NCBI GenBank assembly: GCA_011330685.1
Contig: DRPV01000155.1
Span: 1 to 32,667 of the forward strand
Origin: Desulfobacterales bacterium
Lineage (GTDB): Bacteria > Desulfobacterota > Desulfobulbia > Desulfobulbales > VMSU01
Direction: 5' to 3'
Length of the DNA: 32,667 nucleotides
Position numbers and translations under genes: made by a program
Notes under the pieces: model-generated
Databases searched by the model: none
What the model saw: the letters and a program-made list of their open reading frames with translations, nothing else
What the model was told of the DNA's origin: nothing
Shown: piece by piece, positions 2,545-8,304 of the stretch
How positions within the stretch are numbered: position 1 is the stretch's first letter
Layout of the letters: each line of letters begins with the position of its first letter

Positions 2545-2575
2545 TTGACAGCTCCATGGATATAACGGATATAAT
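2545..2575 (+). promoter_or_regulatory. Sigma-70-type promoter of the Sec/Met-rich peptide gene
   Basis: Perfect TTGACA (2545-2550) and perfect TATAAT (2570-2575) are separated by 19 bases, slightly longer than the usual 17. The start codon follows about 45 bases downstream. Both hexamers being consensus suggests a substantial, probably housekeeping-type expression level. Confidence 0.7.
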
Positions 2576-2621
2576 AATAATTATCAGTACACTTTTGCTT
2601 ATAAATTAAAAGGAGGAAATG

Positions 2622-3020
2622 ATGAAAAGCAATGAACTTAAAAATTTGCTGGCCGGAGTCGGCATTGCCGGCTTATTATCCCTTACCGGAATCGGGCTGG
2701 GAACCGTTACCACTGCCGGAGCAAGCGGTTGAGGTAAATCATCATCCAGCGCCGGGAGCGCTGCAATGGGAGCAAGTGGCTGTGGGAAATCATCTGCCAG
2801 CGCCGGGAATACTGCAATGGGCGGCATGATGAACAAGGATGACATGCCCATGAACCAAAAAGGCAAGATGAAAAATAAGGACGATATGCCAATGCAGAAG
2901 GACGGCACAATGATGAACAAAGACGACATGCCAATGCAGAAAAACGGCACAATGATGAACAAAGCCGGCATGCCAAAACAGGACGGTACAGATAAACCGG
3001 CTGCAGGAGGTGATAATTAA
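2622..3020 (+). CDS. Secreted Sec/Cys-repeat, Met-rich peptide with in-frame TGA (putative selenoprotein)
   Basis: The ORF track shows only the part after 2766. The frame continues upstream through one TGA (2730-2732, codon 37) to ATG 2622, five bases behind SD AGGAGG (ATG 2619 also possible). Read through, it gives 132 residues. Residues 9-29 are hydrophobic after a basic start, then TTAGA/SG, a plausible signal peptidase site. Two 17-residue tandem repeats follow: GASG(Sec)GKSSSSAGSAAM and GASGCGKSSASAGNTAM, with TGA exactly at the Cys position of the second. Then come four copies of an MMNKDDMPMQKDGT-like unit. A consensus promoter and terminator frame the gene. The layout recalls Sec-containing RiPP-like precursors (SbtA type, from memory), but no maturase gene lies nearby. 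Soft-metal binding or post-translational modification is inference. Confidence 0.8.
2730..2763 (+). promoter_or_regulatory. Putative bacterial SECIS element at the in-frame TGA
   Basis: After TGA (2730-2732) and a 14-base spacer comes a perfect 6-bp GC-rich stem, CAGCGC (2747-2752) with GCGCTG (2758-2763), closing a CGGGA loop. The loop lies 20-24 bases after the TGA and carries G at its second position, within what is known for bacterial SECIS elements read by SelB. In the Cys copy of the repeat the left arm is kept but the right arm reads ATACTG, which breaks three of the six pairs. The hairpin therefore exists only where a TGA must be decoded. Confidence 0.7.
2818..2990 (+). repeat. Tandem Met/Asp/Lys coding repeats
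   Basis: Four imperfect tandem units of about 42 bases encode MMNKDDMPM(N/Q)K-like segments; the middle two are closest to each other. All differences keep the reading frame. The repeat is within the coding region of the Sec peptide and explains the long open frames on the opposite strand. Confidence 0.75.
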
Positions 3021-3062: not shown

Positions 3063-3106
3063 AAAAAAGAGTGGCGGAATCATCAATTCCGACCGCTCTT
3101 TTTTTT
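3063..3106 (+). terminator. Rho-independent terminator of the Sec/Met-rich peptide gene
   Basis: AAAAAAGAG..GGCGGAAT, a short loop, then ATTCCG..CGCTCTTTTTTTT forms a long stem with two small mismatches and a T-run. It closes a single-gene transcription unit before the PEP-CTERM gene. Confidence 0.8.
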
Positions 3107-3160
3107 GCGCTCAATTCTTTTATATGTTAATTTTAAGAAAAATCAAAACGGGGGGATAAT

Positions 3161-3871
3161 ATGAGGTGGATACTGATATTTCTGGTCGTGGAATCGTGTC
3201 TATGGGGCGGAAGCCTAAATTCTGCCAGGGCGGATATAATTGGTTTTCAATTCAGTGGTTCCTGGACAAGTGTCGATCCGGCTTTTACAAACCTTACCGG
3301 CGGTGTCGATCAGCCGGTTACCGGCAGCATTTATTATGATACCACCATTACCGATAAAGATTCAATCGCCAAACGAGCCTATTATTACGGCAATGATAAA
3401 ATTATAAATCTTTCTTTCACCACCAATGCGGCCCATATTCAAATCCAAAAAGCCCGTATCGCCATCTATGCCAACTATAATGGTAACAAGAATAGTCTGG
3501 GTTTCGATCAATTCCAGCTCTGGTTTAGCACCCAGTCAGACGGCCAGGGCAAAGTCACATCGATGGCCTCTCTGCCGCAAGACACAACAGGATCATTTCT
3601 TTTAAAAGACGAGACCAATAAGAATCTCTTTAATAATGACGACAGTTTGCCCAGTAACTTAGACCCATTACGGCTGATGTCTACAATGTCATTCACACTC
3701 TCTCGCTCCCCAGAGTACAAAGATGAAGCCGTGGCCAAAATTACCTCCCTCACCACCCTGCCCGTCCCGGAGCCGGAGACTATAATTCTTCTATGCCTGG
3801 GGCTGGCCTTAATCTTCCTTTGGCATGGGCTTAATAACCGTAAGGGCGGATTCCAGCAGTTGAGAGCTTAA
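3161..3871 (+). CDS. PEP-CTERM sorting-signal protein
   Basis: 236 residues with an N-terminal signal peptide (hydrophobic residues 3-20, SARA/D cleavage near 25). The C-terminal tripartite tail is VPEPE at about 206, then a hydrophobic helix, then basic residues (NNRKGG). This tail is the PEP-CTERM signal, normally recognised by an EpsH-type exosortase that moves the protein to the cell surface or exopolysaccharide; no exosortase is in this window. The middle is beta-rich, Asn/Asp/Ser-rich and not assignable to a function. SD GGGGGGA lies close to the ATG. The last 63 bases overlap the convergent yfiR-like gene, so both C-termini share DNA. Confidence 0.85.
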   Translation: MRWILIFLVVESCLWGGSLNSARADIIGFQFSGSWTSVDPAFTNLTGGVDQPVTGSIYYDTTITDKDSIAKRAYYYGNDKIINLSFTTNAAHIQIQKARIAIYANYNGNKNSLGFDQFQLWFSTQSDGQGKVTSMASLPQDTTGSFLLKDETNKNLFNNDDSLPSNLDPLRLMSTMSFTLSRSPEYKDEAVAKITSLTTLPVPEPETIILLCLGLALIFLWHGLNNRKGGFQQLRA

Positions 3872-4402
3872 ACGCAGACCGGCCGTCCTGGCGGCACTTA
3901 AATTCACCTGATAACGGATACGGCCCTCCATTTTCACCAACTCAATCATACCGCCCGCGCTTAGAAAGTGCCTAACATCAGCCACCGTCAAAATAGGCCG
4001 CCCCTTGAGCCGCGCGACAATCATCTTGAAATTATCGGCCTGAGAGCGGCCAATAAAAAGAATATGACAAGCCGAGAAATCAAGATCAGGCCGATAAGAG
4101 TTATAAAGGATTACCTTGATAGTCGTTCTTCCTCTCTGCCGCAGACGCCTCGCCAATTCAGTAAGACTGCGGCCCAGCTCCTGGTCGCCGAGAACACCAA
4201 TCACCTTTACGACCTTTTCTTCTTTCTCTTCCTGATCCGGCCAGGTGACAAAATGTAAAAAGTTATAGAGATAGACGGCCTTGACCTGAACCTGTTTAAT
4301 CACCGGTTCTCCGCCGCCGGCAGCCGCCGATGAAACAACCATAGAGGAGGCAATCAGAGCCAGGATAACAAGCGCCATCCTTAAATGAAGCCTCATCTTC
4401 AT
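3809..4402 (-). CDS. YfiR family periplasmic regulator (DUF4154)
   Basis: 197 residues: a signal peptide (MKMRLHLRMALVILALIASS, ending near AAAGG) then the YfiR domain, seen in VKAVYLYNFLHFVTWPD, IGVLGDQELG, HILFIGRSQ, ILTVADVRHFLSAGGMIELV and INLSAARTAGLRLSSQLLE-like segments. In Pseudomonas, YfiR is a periplasmic inhibitor of the inner-membrane cyclase YfiN. Here its ATG overlaps the stop of a histidine kinase by four bases (ATGA), so the two are translationally coupled and it probably acts on that kinase's sensor domain. That function is inference from context. The 3' end overlaps the PEP-CTERM gene tail to tail. Confidence 0.88.
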   Translation of the reverse strand: MKMRLHLRMALVILALIASSMVVSSAAAGGGEPVIKQVQVKAVYLYNFLHFVTWPDQEEKEEKVVKVIGVLGDQELGRSLTELARRLRQRGRTTIKVILYNSYRPDLDFSACHILFIGRSQADNFKMIVARLKGRPILTVADVRHFLSAGGMIELVKMEGRIRYQVNLSAARTAGLRLSSQLLESALTVIKPMPKED

Positions 4403-5943
4403 TCCATACCCCCCACACCGCCGTCTTCCTCATCAGCCTTTTTACACGGCTCCACCGGCAGGATAATGACGATCTCTGTCCCACGGCCCGGTGCCGAGTG
4501 TACTTCAATCTTACCATGATGGTTTTTAACAATATTATAGGTAATTGACAGACCGAGTCCGGTACCCTGGCCCACGGGCTTAGTACTGAAAAAGGGGTCA
4601 AAGATGTATTCTAAGGCCTCGGGTTCAATTCCGCTCCCGTTATCCTGAAAGCTGATATACGCTTTGCCCCCGGCCGGCCAGGTCTTGAGCCGGATGGTTC
4701 CCCGTTTTTCAATGGCCTGGATGGCGTTAAGGAGTATATTCATATAGGCTTGGCCCATATGATCCCGCTGACAATAAACAACAGGCAGATCCGGATCGAA
4801 ATCCCGGATAATCTCCGCCTTATCCCGGCACTCGTAACGAAGAAGATTGATGATATTATTAAGCTCGGCGTGGATATCAACCGGAACTAATTGACCATGA
4901 CTGGATCTGGAAAAGGCGTTAAGATCCTGGACAATTTTCTTTGTTCTTCTAACTCCCTCCTCGGCATTGGCCAATAATGAGACAATATCAAGATGCATCT
5001 GCCAGGCTGGGGAGGCCTTATGATTTTCCGCCATCTCCACGACCAGTTCATTGGTCATCCGCTTAATATTGGGTAAGGCACCGGCAATGAAACTTATATT
5101 ATTATTAATATCGTGGGCAACTCCAGCCACCAGCTGACCCAGGGCCGCCATTTTCTCGGATTGCACCAGCTGGGCCTGACTCTTCCTGAGATCATCCATG
5201 GCGTTCTGCAGCTCCTCGGTACGAGCCGCTACCCGGCCTTCCAGGGTGCGGTTGTATTCCTCCAGGCGCTCATGGGAATCACGCAGCCGTTTATTCATCT
5301 CCACAAAGGCGCTACAGAGAACCCCCATCTCATCCCGCCCCCGCATAGAGGAACATTTTTTAAACTGAAAGTCTCCGGCAGCAATCCGTTTAACCATCTC
5401 AGTTAAAGACAATAATGGTTTCGAAACAACATTACGCAGAATGGCCGAAAGCCAAAAGGCCGAGAACAAAGAGCCAACGCCCACCAGCAGCAGAATAAGT
5501 AATATCTGCCTCCGCCCTCTGGCCATATCACGCATGTCATCCTCAATAACGATACGACCGACATAGGTGCCGTCATCAAGGATAATCTTCCGGGAAAATG
5601 AACAAATTTCTTTTACTGAAGTACCTTTAAGCGCCGACGCCTTATAACTGGCAAAAACATGCCCCTGCTTATCGTAGAGAATCACCTGCCGAACTGATTT
5701 ACGGCCCTTCAGGGTGGCGAGCACAACACCGGCATCCTCCGGAACATCAAACATAAGAGCGGCCTTGCAGTTGGAGCCGACAATAAGAGCCAGATTGTTC
5801 ATGTCCCTTTTATAGACCTTCTGAAAATGATTAACCACCAGGCCGTAAAAGGCCAGGCAGGCAACCAGCACCGTCAGGCTGCTGGTAAGCATCAGAATCA
5901 GGGTTAGTTTATGTTTAATACTTACGTCACGCCAGAACATCAT
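4399..5943 (-). CDS. Membrane histidine kinase with CHASE8-like periplasmic sensor and HAMP
   Basis: 514 residues. TM1 is at 14-36. A periplasmic domain at about 38-140 (LALIVGSNCKAALMFDVPEDA..YDKQGHVFASY) resembles CHASE8, the sensor fold of YfiN/TpbB. TM2 is near 146-168, a HAMP domain at about 170-222 and a coiled coil at about 223-265. In HisKA the phospho-acceptor is His277 (GVAHDINN). HATPase_c has the N-box NILLNA, then DNGSGI and GQGTGLGLS. All catalytic motifs are present. No response regulator is adjacent, so the partner is unknown. It lies nine bases after the TonB receptor and overlaps the yfiR-like gene, forming one operon. An envelope or ligand signal sensed with YfiR is likely but unproven. 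Confidence 0.92.
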   Translation of the reverse strand: MMFWRDVSIKHKLTLILMLTSSLTVLVACLAFYGLVVNHFQKVYKRDMNNLALIVGSNCKAALMFDVPEDAGVVLATLKGRKSVRQVILYDKQGHVFASYKASALKGTSVKEICSFSRKIILDDGTYVGRIVIEDDMRDMARGRRQILLILLLVGVGSLFSAFWLSAILRNVVSKPLLSLTEMVKRIAAGDFQFKKCSSMRGRDEMGVLCSAFVEMNKRLRDSHERLEEYNRTLEGRVAARTEELQNAMDDLRKSQAQLVQSEKMAALGQLVAGVAHDINNNISFIAGALPNIKRMTNELVVEMAENHKASPAWQMHLDIVSLLANAEEGVRRTKKIVQDLNAFSRSSHGQLVPVDIHAELNNIINLLRYECRDKAEIIRDFDPDLPVVYCQRDHMGQAYMNILLNAIQAIEKRGTIRLKTWPAGGKAYISFQDNGSGIEPEALEYIFDPFFSTKPVGQGTGLGLSITYNIVKNHHGKIEVHSAPGRGTEIVIILPVEPCKKADEEDGGVGGME

Positions 5944-5952
5944 GCGGCCATG

Positions 5953-8304
5953 TCAATAGTCATAAGAGAGGGACAGATAATATTGCGGATTCTCAGCCCT
6001 GGGTGAATCAAGAGGGCGGGTACCGTTAAAGTAGGCAGGATGTTGATTATAATTTTTATGCAGCAGTTCTTTGGCACTGAACGACAGCCTGAGATGTTTA
6101 TTAAACTGATACCAGAGGTTGGCATCCATCACAAAAGACCATTTATCGAAAAGAGCGGCCACTGCCGGATCGGTCACCTTTGCCTTTTCATAGCGGGGCG
6201 ACTCCAGGAGCCCGTTGGCTCCGGCAAAAAGACCGGGTAGAACTTCATAGCTGAGATACAGCTTAAACATATGGACAGGGTAACGAGTCCAGGTATCATC
6301 CCGGTTGGCCACCCGGATAGAGTCTTCAAAGGAGTTAAGCGGTTTGGAGTAGCTATACGAAAGAGAGCCGGAAAGAGGGCCCTCCGGCGGTCGGTAATTC
6401 AGGCTTAATTCACCGCCGACGGCCGTAATTATCTTATGACTGTTACCATAAGTAAAACCGCTGTCCACCCAGCCCTGAGTGTCTTTATAGCGGTTATAAA
6501 ACAGGGCGCTGGTAATATTGACGGACTTCACAAGTCCGTTAATATCATAATTAAACTCATAACTCTTGGAGGTCTCGGGTTTAAGTTTAATATTAGTGCC
6601 GTTGGCCTTATTCTGATGCGCCACCCATTTCAGCGGCCAGTAATCGGCAAAGCGAAAGCCCTCCTGATATGAGAGCCTCACCGTCTGCCGCCCGCTTATC
6701 TGATAGGCCAGAGCCAGGCGCTTGGTATAAGCCTCCGCGTCATCAGGGGGCGGATATGGGCCGTCGTTAAAGGGGGGAACCGCCGATATATCATGGTTAT
6801 AATAGGTCTTATCATAGCGCAGACCACCCAGAAGGGTGAATTTACCAATCTGAGCCTGATCCTCGCCAAAGGCACTAAACGTATGCCATTGCCAGGGATA
6901 GGTATAGAATTTAAAATATTTGGCCTCTACCCCCCAGGCAATCTTCTGGTTACGCAGGCCGGTGTAATTATTGATCAGGGTAAGGCCCGTATGCAGTTCA
7001 TCACCATAGGCATAATAATCCTCATTGCACTTCATGGCCGGACAGTCATTACCATCGGTGGGGGGCAGGCTGATATGAAGCCTCCGCACCTCATCAAGTA
7101 AGAAATCGCTGAATACCGAGTGTGATTTAAGACGATGATAGTAGGGGATCAGGGTAAGGTTATTATGCTCGTTAAGTCGCAGCTTTATCTCTGGAGAGAT
7201 AAGAAGATTCTCAGACTCCTGCACATAAAATGGTGAATAACGGCCGCCCCTGGCCTCGGCAGTCGCCTTGACTTCCTCCCGCCAGTCGGCACTGCTGGTC
7301 AGATACTCGCCAAGCACCGGGCCAACATTGGAGGTATGACTCAGCAGCCCCTTCAGGTCGACCCGCAGGCGGTCATCAGGCCGGCCGAACTGGGCCCGGA
7401 AGGCAAATTTATAGTTGCCATCGGTCTTACCGACCCGGACATTATCAAGAAAGGTGGCGGAAGGCGTGCCGTTCACCCCGTTTAACTTAGACCATTGAGA
7501 AATGGGCAGGGTGTAATGCGGCCGCACACCATCATTTTTGCTGTAACCACCATAGAGAAAATAATTTAACCGCTCGTTGAGCACTTGGCCATAACTACCC
7601 TCGACCTGCCGAAAATCACCGCTGCCCACCATGGTATAGACCCGCAGCCCTTCCCGGCTCTTCCCCGTGGCGCTGATCAGATTTATGGAACCGTTAATAG
7701 CCCCTGAACCATAGCGCAGAGTGCCGGGGCCGGTGGAGATTTCCACCCTCTCAATGTCACCCAACAGGGTGGTGGAAAGATCAGAACCGTTTATTCCCAC
7801 GATTTGCCGATTATTGATATTGACGTTATCGCGCAGCATGATGGTCTTCGAATTGTTATCAATGAGCATGCCCCGAACTCCAATGATGGTACCCTGATTA
7901 CCATGAGTAGCGGTGGACATCCCCGGTACCTGGCGGTCGATATATTCGGCGATGGAACGAATCCCCATCCGCCGCAGCTGCTCGATGTCAACCACATAAT
8001 GACTACCGGGCGCCTCACTGCGTGACATGGGGAAAAGGCCTGAAGATTGAATGGGAAGCCGAGCCAGTTCAGCCATGGAAAGACCAAGAAGATAATCATA
8101 CACCCGGTCATCACCCTGAGGAGCGGCAAGCGGAGCTGGTGTCGATGACGGCTGCCGACTTGTTTGCGCCGCACTGCCGCCTGCTGAAGCCCCAAGCAGC
8201 AGCAAGATAAAAAATCCGGCAGCAATTATTTTCATCCCCATCAGAGGAAGGAGCTGGCATTTTCCACACCAATTGTGCTGCACCGACAAACTTCGGGAAC
8301 GCAT
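5953..8304 (-). CDS. TonB-dependent outer-membrane receptor
   Basis: 783 residues. SD GGGGAG six bases upstream supports ATG 8304; the hydrophobic export signal begins only near residue 24, so the n-region is long. After it comes DYLLGLSMAELARLPIQS, the N-terminal segment common in receptors of this family. The plug domain spans about 85-215 (RSIAEYIDRQVPGM, IGVRGM, VERVEISTGPGTLRYGSGAINGSINLI). The 22-strand barrel fills the remainder, ending in an aromatic YYLSLSYDY. These proteins import siderophores, cobalamin, metals or other ligands using TonB energy. The ligand cannot be told from sequence. It is the first gene of an operon with the histidine kinase and YfiR, which suggests a receptor tied to signalling. 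No Fur box was recognised. Confidence 0.93.
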   Translation of the reverse strand: MRSRSLSVQHNWCGKCQLLPLMGMKIIAAGFFILLLLGASAGGSAAQTSRQPSSTPAPLAAPQGDDRVYDYLLGLSMAELARLPIQSSGLFPMSRSEAPGSHYVVDIEQLRRMGIRSIAEYIDRQVPGMSTATHGNQGTIIGVRGMLIDNNSKTIMLRDNVNINNRQIVGINGSDLSTTLLGDIERVEISTGPGTLRYGSGAINGSINLISATGKSREGLRVYTMVGSGDFRQVEGSYGQVLNERLNYFLYGGYSKNDGVRPHYTLPISQWSKLNGVNGTPSATFLDNVRVGKTDGNYKFAFRAQFGRPDDRLRVDLKGLLSHTSNVGPVLGEYLTSSADWREEVKATAEARGGRYSPFYVQESENLLISPEIKLRLNEHNNLTLIPYYHRLKSHSVFSDFLLDEVRRLHISLPPTDGNDCPAMKCNEDYYAYGDELHTGLTLINNYTGLRNQKIAWGVEAKYFKFYTYPWQWHTFSAFGEDQAQIGKFTLLGGLRYDKTYYNHDISAVPPFNDGPYPPPDDAEAYTKRLALAYQISGRQTVRLSYQEGFRFADYWPLKWVAHQNKANGTNIKLKPETSKSYEFNYDINGLVKSVNITSALFYNRYKDTQGWVDSGFTYGNSHKIITAVGGELSLNYRPPEGPLSGSLSYSYSKPLNSFEDSIRVANRDDTWTRYPVHMFKLYLSYEVLPGLFAGANGLLESPRYEKAKVTDPAVAALFDKWSFVMDANLWYQFNKHLRLSFSAKELLHKNYNQHPAYFNGTRPLDSPRAENPQYYLSLSYDY

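Follow-up and report, generated by a model that had tools for sequence, protein, structure and literature searches.

The window, i.e., the whole 32,667-nt stretch of DNA that was analyzed, carries on its forward strand a gene assigned to the sbtA family, with one internal TGA predicted to be read as selenocysteine (Sec, U). The following features were annotated at this locus:

2545–2575 (+), promoter candidate from sequence: TTGACA (2545–2550), 19-nt spacer, TATAAT (2570–2575)
2572–2586 (+), Fur-box-like palindrome TAATAATAATTATCA, agreeing with TGATAATNATTATCA at 13 of 14 specified bases (one mismatch)
2610–2616 (+), Shine-Dalgarno sequence AAGGAGG
2622–3020 (+), sbtA-family gene of 132 residues, predicted Sec at codon 37, stop codon TAA
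2622–2720 (+), leader (residues 1–33) with the TIGR04081 domain, resembling a Sec signal peptide
2718–2768 (+), repeat copy 1 with the predicted Sec codon (GASGUGKSSSSAGSAAM), from direct-repeat comparison
2730–2732 (+), TGA predicted to encode Sec; Sec/TGA or Cys in congeners, SECIS-type hairpin downstream
2747–2763 (+), bacterial SECIS-type apical stem-loop CAGCGC-CGGGA-GCGCTG, loop 20 nt after the TGA
2769–2819 (+), repeat copy 2 with Cys (TGT at 2781–2783) and the hairpin lost, from direct-repeat comparison
2826–2993 (+), Met-rich tail of four 14-residue units of the MNKDDMPM type, from translation and repeat comparison
3063–3108 (+), terminator-like inverted repeat with a T run, from sequence

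Apart from the TGA at codon 37, the frame from 2622 to 3020 is free of stops and translates as MKSNELKN...TAGASGUGKSSSSAGSAAMGASGCGKSS...MNKDDMPM...; an in-frame ATG at 2766 opens an 84-residue ORF (2766–3020) without the leader. The original prediction of a single read-through gene is borne out by the open frame, the Shine-Dalgarno sequence, the terminator-like stem (3063–3104, with a T run), and a TGA at the same codon in the congener L060. The Cys that it placed opposite the TGA was likewise recovered, as TGA and TGT occupy equivalent positions in two 51-nt direct repeats of 82% identity, and its four MNKDDMPM-type units correspond to 42-nt tandem repeats in the DNA. The consensus promoter that it proposed is perfect in both hexamers, but the spacer measures 19 nt, so that a scan for spacers of 16–18 nt did not list it; GATATA, 17 nt from TTGACA, is an alternative −10 box. 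Of the three congeners inspected, L060 and L061 conserve TTGACA.

Four genomes of the genus carry sbtA, with Sec in this genome, L060 and L061 (TGA at the motif site in both congeners) and only Cys in L062. As anticipated, homologs have either TGA or a Cys codon at this place and no unrelated codon. Downstream of the TGA, 51 of the 100 differences between the window and L060 fall at third codon positions (p 2e-4), a pattern by which coding continues beyond the TGA. This divergence, together with the shared TGA in L060 and the Cys read-through in another congener, indicates that the gene is more than a chance frame.

The hairpin after the TGA fits the published SECIS model (upper stem of 4–16 bp, loop of 3–9 nt, G within the first two loop positions, spacing of 16–37 nt; PMC13188914) with a 6-bp stem, the loop CGGGA and a spacing of 20 nt, which is also the commonest spacing in the family. 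The Cys repeat differs in the 3′ arm and forms no SECIS-type hairpin. Taken alone, the hairpin of the window is weak evidence, since 6.5% of synonymous recodings match its energy. Minimum-free-energy z-scores of the SECIS region were uninformative, and a position-specific hairpin test was therefore used in their place. Among 93 translated family members, the gene of the window included, a stable hairpin conforming to the model is present after 203 of 217 Sec codons and after 6 of 15 Cys codons, but after none of the 17 genuine TGA stops, counts that come from related rather than independent sequences. Moreover, its base pairs covary across the family (CG, GC, TA and AT types). With such a hairpin after the TGA of the window and none after the genuine TGA stops of the family, there is no sign of a stop at codon 36, the outcome that would have contradicted the original prediction. 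In L039, L040, L041, L118, L123 and others, sbtA ends in ...SGUSG-TGA, the Sec TGA lying two codons from the true TGA stop; apparently, the hairpin tells the two apart even inside single genes.

The Sec machinery on which the prediction depended is encoded in this genome as regards SelA (607 bits), SelB (376 bits) and tRNA-Sec (73.7 bits, anticodon TCA), but selD is absent from the assembly: the sole match in a search of this MAG was rejected as a selD candidate because its sequence points to a ThiL-like protein. The assembly probably has a gap here, since all nine other genomes of the taxonomic family (9/9) have SelD. In several genomes of the family (L172 (G444), L171, L173 and L174) SelD contains an in-frame TGA and is probably itself a selenoprotein.

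That the TGA instead ends translation, or arose through faulty assembly, leaving a 36-residue peptide followed by a separate or decaying ORF at 2766–3020, is very improbable. The in-frame ATG at 2766 and the missing selD would suit this explanation, but the ORF that opens there has no leader, the TGA recurs at the same codon in an independent congener genome with Cys in another, third-position bias persists after it, and the SECIS hairpin is missing after true TGA stops. We are nearly certain that SelB and tRNA-Sec decode the TGA as Sec, with the downstream hairpin (spacing 20 nt) directing them.

The TIGR04081 (SbtA) profile matches residues 1–27 with 30.6 bits, barely above the cut-off of 30.5, and the SG-Sec/Cys-G motif follows the leader in two copies, GASGUGK and GASGCGK. 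The 93 relatives share a common plan, in which a KKLLAGxGIAGLL-type leader precedes SG-U-G or SG-C-G, often followed by SAGS-like residues. Judged by its sequence, the peptide is a member of the SbtA family, precursors of thio(seleno)oxazole peptides, a family named “selenobacteriocin” in a review (PMC13188914). The profile match vindicates the earlier suggestion of an SbtA-type precursor and gives a family to a peptide that had been treated as having none; the prediction was thus right in outline, but its novelty is smaller than implied, as family and chemistry were already published. The precursor looks low-complexity; a Pfam search with it returned no credible family, and a PDB search nothing relevant among solved structures.

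SbtA scores above the cut-off in 106 of the 194 genomes of the order, and its presence follows that of the maturase SbtM (TIGR04082): 103 genomes have both, 83 neither and 8 are discordant, an agreement of 186/194 (p 2e-44, with genomes that are not independent). In 61 genomes the two genes are close together on one strand, sbtA preceding sbtM by at most about 700 bp. Within this genus they are on separate contigs, and sbtM is present in 4/4 congeners; here it is encoded on contig C136, not adjoining sbtA (664 bits, cut-off 350). Of the two maturase types that had been proposed, the radical SAM enzyme is therefore present as SbtM, for which a PDB search showed similarity to radical SAM peptide maturases, SkfB among them, but a search of this genome for an MNIO (PF05114) gave no match. 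A review (PMC11002830) reports that Cys and SeCys substrates lose four hydrogens with SbtM in vitro and that the Cys product is a thiooxazole. From this family chemistry and the co-occurrence, SbtM very probably modifies the precursor encoded in the window.

Contamination of the contig is unlikely, because L060 and L062 have the same neighbors as the window (glnA, PilZ, a PEP-CTERM protein and a TonB receptor). Positions 3161–8304 of the window encode a PEP-CTERM protein and then, on the other strand, a YfiR-like protein, a CHASE8 histidine kinase and a TonB-dependent receptor; the PEP-CTERM and TonB receptor genes are also close to sbtA in L060 and L062. A mercury-resistance (mer) operon (merR, merT, a merP-like HMA protein and a merA-like reductase; L061:5694-8486) lies convergent with sbtA in one congener only. 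Across about 45 sbtA neighborhoods, no conserved neighbor besides sbtM was found, and no dedicated exporter, protease or immunity gene.

The Fur-box-like palindrome overlaps the promoter; when the upstream region was shuffled 2000 times, one shuffle agreed equally well with the Fur consensus TGATAATNATTATCA, and the AT-rich DNA around the site counts against it. L060 and L061 have related sites at −50 to −52, and L062 has one at −143. Iron-responsive transcription through this site is conceivable for the genus, with the balance leaning somewhat against it. In Met content, the four congeners occupy ranks 1–4 among the 93 family members, and the Met-rich tail, the Fur-box-like promoter site and, in one congener, the adjoining mer operon look genus-specific and new. 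In G484 (L098:5029-5800) the frame after sbtA leads into what seems to be a Met-rich exported protein in its own right (MKKMMIGTALMLAFAVTPAHA...), which may correspond to the Met tail in unfused form.

We propose the following pathway. SelB and tRNA-Sec would read the TGA as Sec, guided by the downstream hairpin. The unlinked SbtM would then form a seleno/thiooxazole at SG-Sec-G before export, and probably also convert the SG-Cys-G site 17 residues further on. Sec-dependent export of the modified peptide would follow; the leader makes it highly likely that the peptide is exported. A lipobox (e.g., VTGC, ITGC) occupies the corresponding part of the leader in about a dozen relatives, which suggests a location in the envelope. 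There, the heterocycles and Met repeats might buffer or scavenge a soft metal by binding it, for example Cu(I), Ag(I) or Hg(II). MNIO-class thiooxazole peptides bind copper, and bufferins use Sec signal peptides (PMC12668002, PMC12452194). Copper binding by thiooxazole peptides, the top Met content, the Fur-like site and the mer operon of L061 together make soft-metal binding our best guess, a role for which we see an even chance. Its most specific form, a selenium-containing metallophore in which an SbtM-made selenooxazole/thiooxazole is joined to a Met-rich metal-binding tail under Fur-like metal-responsive control, is put forward tentatively, as rather doubtful. If true, it would suggest that SbtA peptides function in soft-metal handling in the envelope, and that a radical SAM route exists in parallel to the MNIO captophorins.

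The same SbtA/SbtM product could instead be a released antimicrobial or signaling peptide rather than a metal ligand, as the listing as “selenobacteriocin” (PMC13188914) and the frequency of antimicrobial activity among RiPPs would allow. We consider this unlikely: only sbtM travels with sbtA, and about 45 neighborhoods showed no conserved exporter, protease or immunity gene, several members look like lipoproteins that the leader lipobox would tether in the envelope, and SbtA occurs in more than half of the genomes of the order, against the sporadic occurrence typical of bacteriocins. These points favor an envelope role over a secreted bacteriocin. Alternatively, Sec might be inserted into an exported redox or selenium-storage protein that SbtM leaves unmodified in this genus. 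The location of sbtM on another contig agrees with such a protein, a selenenylsulfide could arise between the Sec and the Cys of the peptide, and the many Met residues could undergo reversible oxidation; however, all four congeners have sbtM, sbtM tracks sbtA across the order, and the SGUG/SGCG motif is identical to that of linked systems, so that this reading, too, is quite improbable. We hold with good confidence to the identity, decoding, maturation and export of the peptide as an SbtA selenopeptide precursor, an assessment that leaves the metal role aside. The chemistry of SbtM is published, and a function of SbtA peptides is not stated in the literature found. A Sec core with a Met-rich tail and a Fur-like operator is a natural variant that makes a metal-binding function directly testable, and this lineage-specific, possibly metal-regulated form would help to settle what SbtA peptides do.

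Met-rich periplasmic copper/silver proteins are known from the PcoE/SilE type. Like these, the precursor is small, is probably exported and repeats a Met motif, but it has an SbtA leader and a Sec core, and there was no relevant match among solved structures. Captophorins and bufferins, MNIO-made 5-thiooxazole peptides that bind copper, probably resemble it in their type of heterocycle, in leaving the cytoplasm as precursors by means of a Sec signal peptide, and in a proposed role as metal ligand. In contrast to their synthesis by MNIOs, a radical SAM enzyme would act here, in a genome in which no MNIO gene was found, and selenocysteine is not mentioned for their precursors in a survey (PMC12452194). 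The closest likeness is to the SbtA family itself, as the leader scores above the curated cut-off, SG-Sec-G is followed by SAGS, a SECIS lies after the Sec codon and SbtM is encoded in the genome. In contrast to most relatives, which have 2–5 Sec, the precursor combines one Sec with one Cys, its tail is rich in Met where many others are rich in Glu/Lys/Ala, and its gene stands apart from sbtM with a Fur-like site at its promoter.
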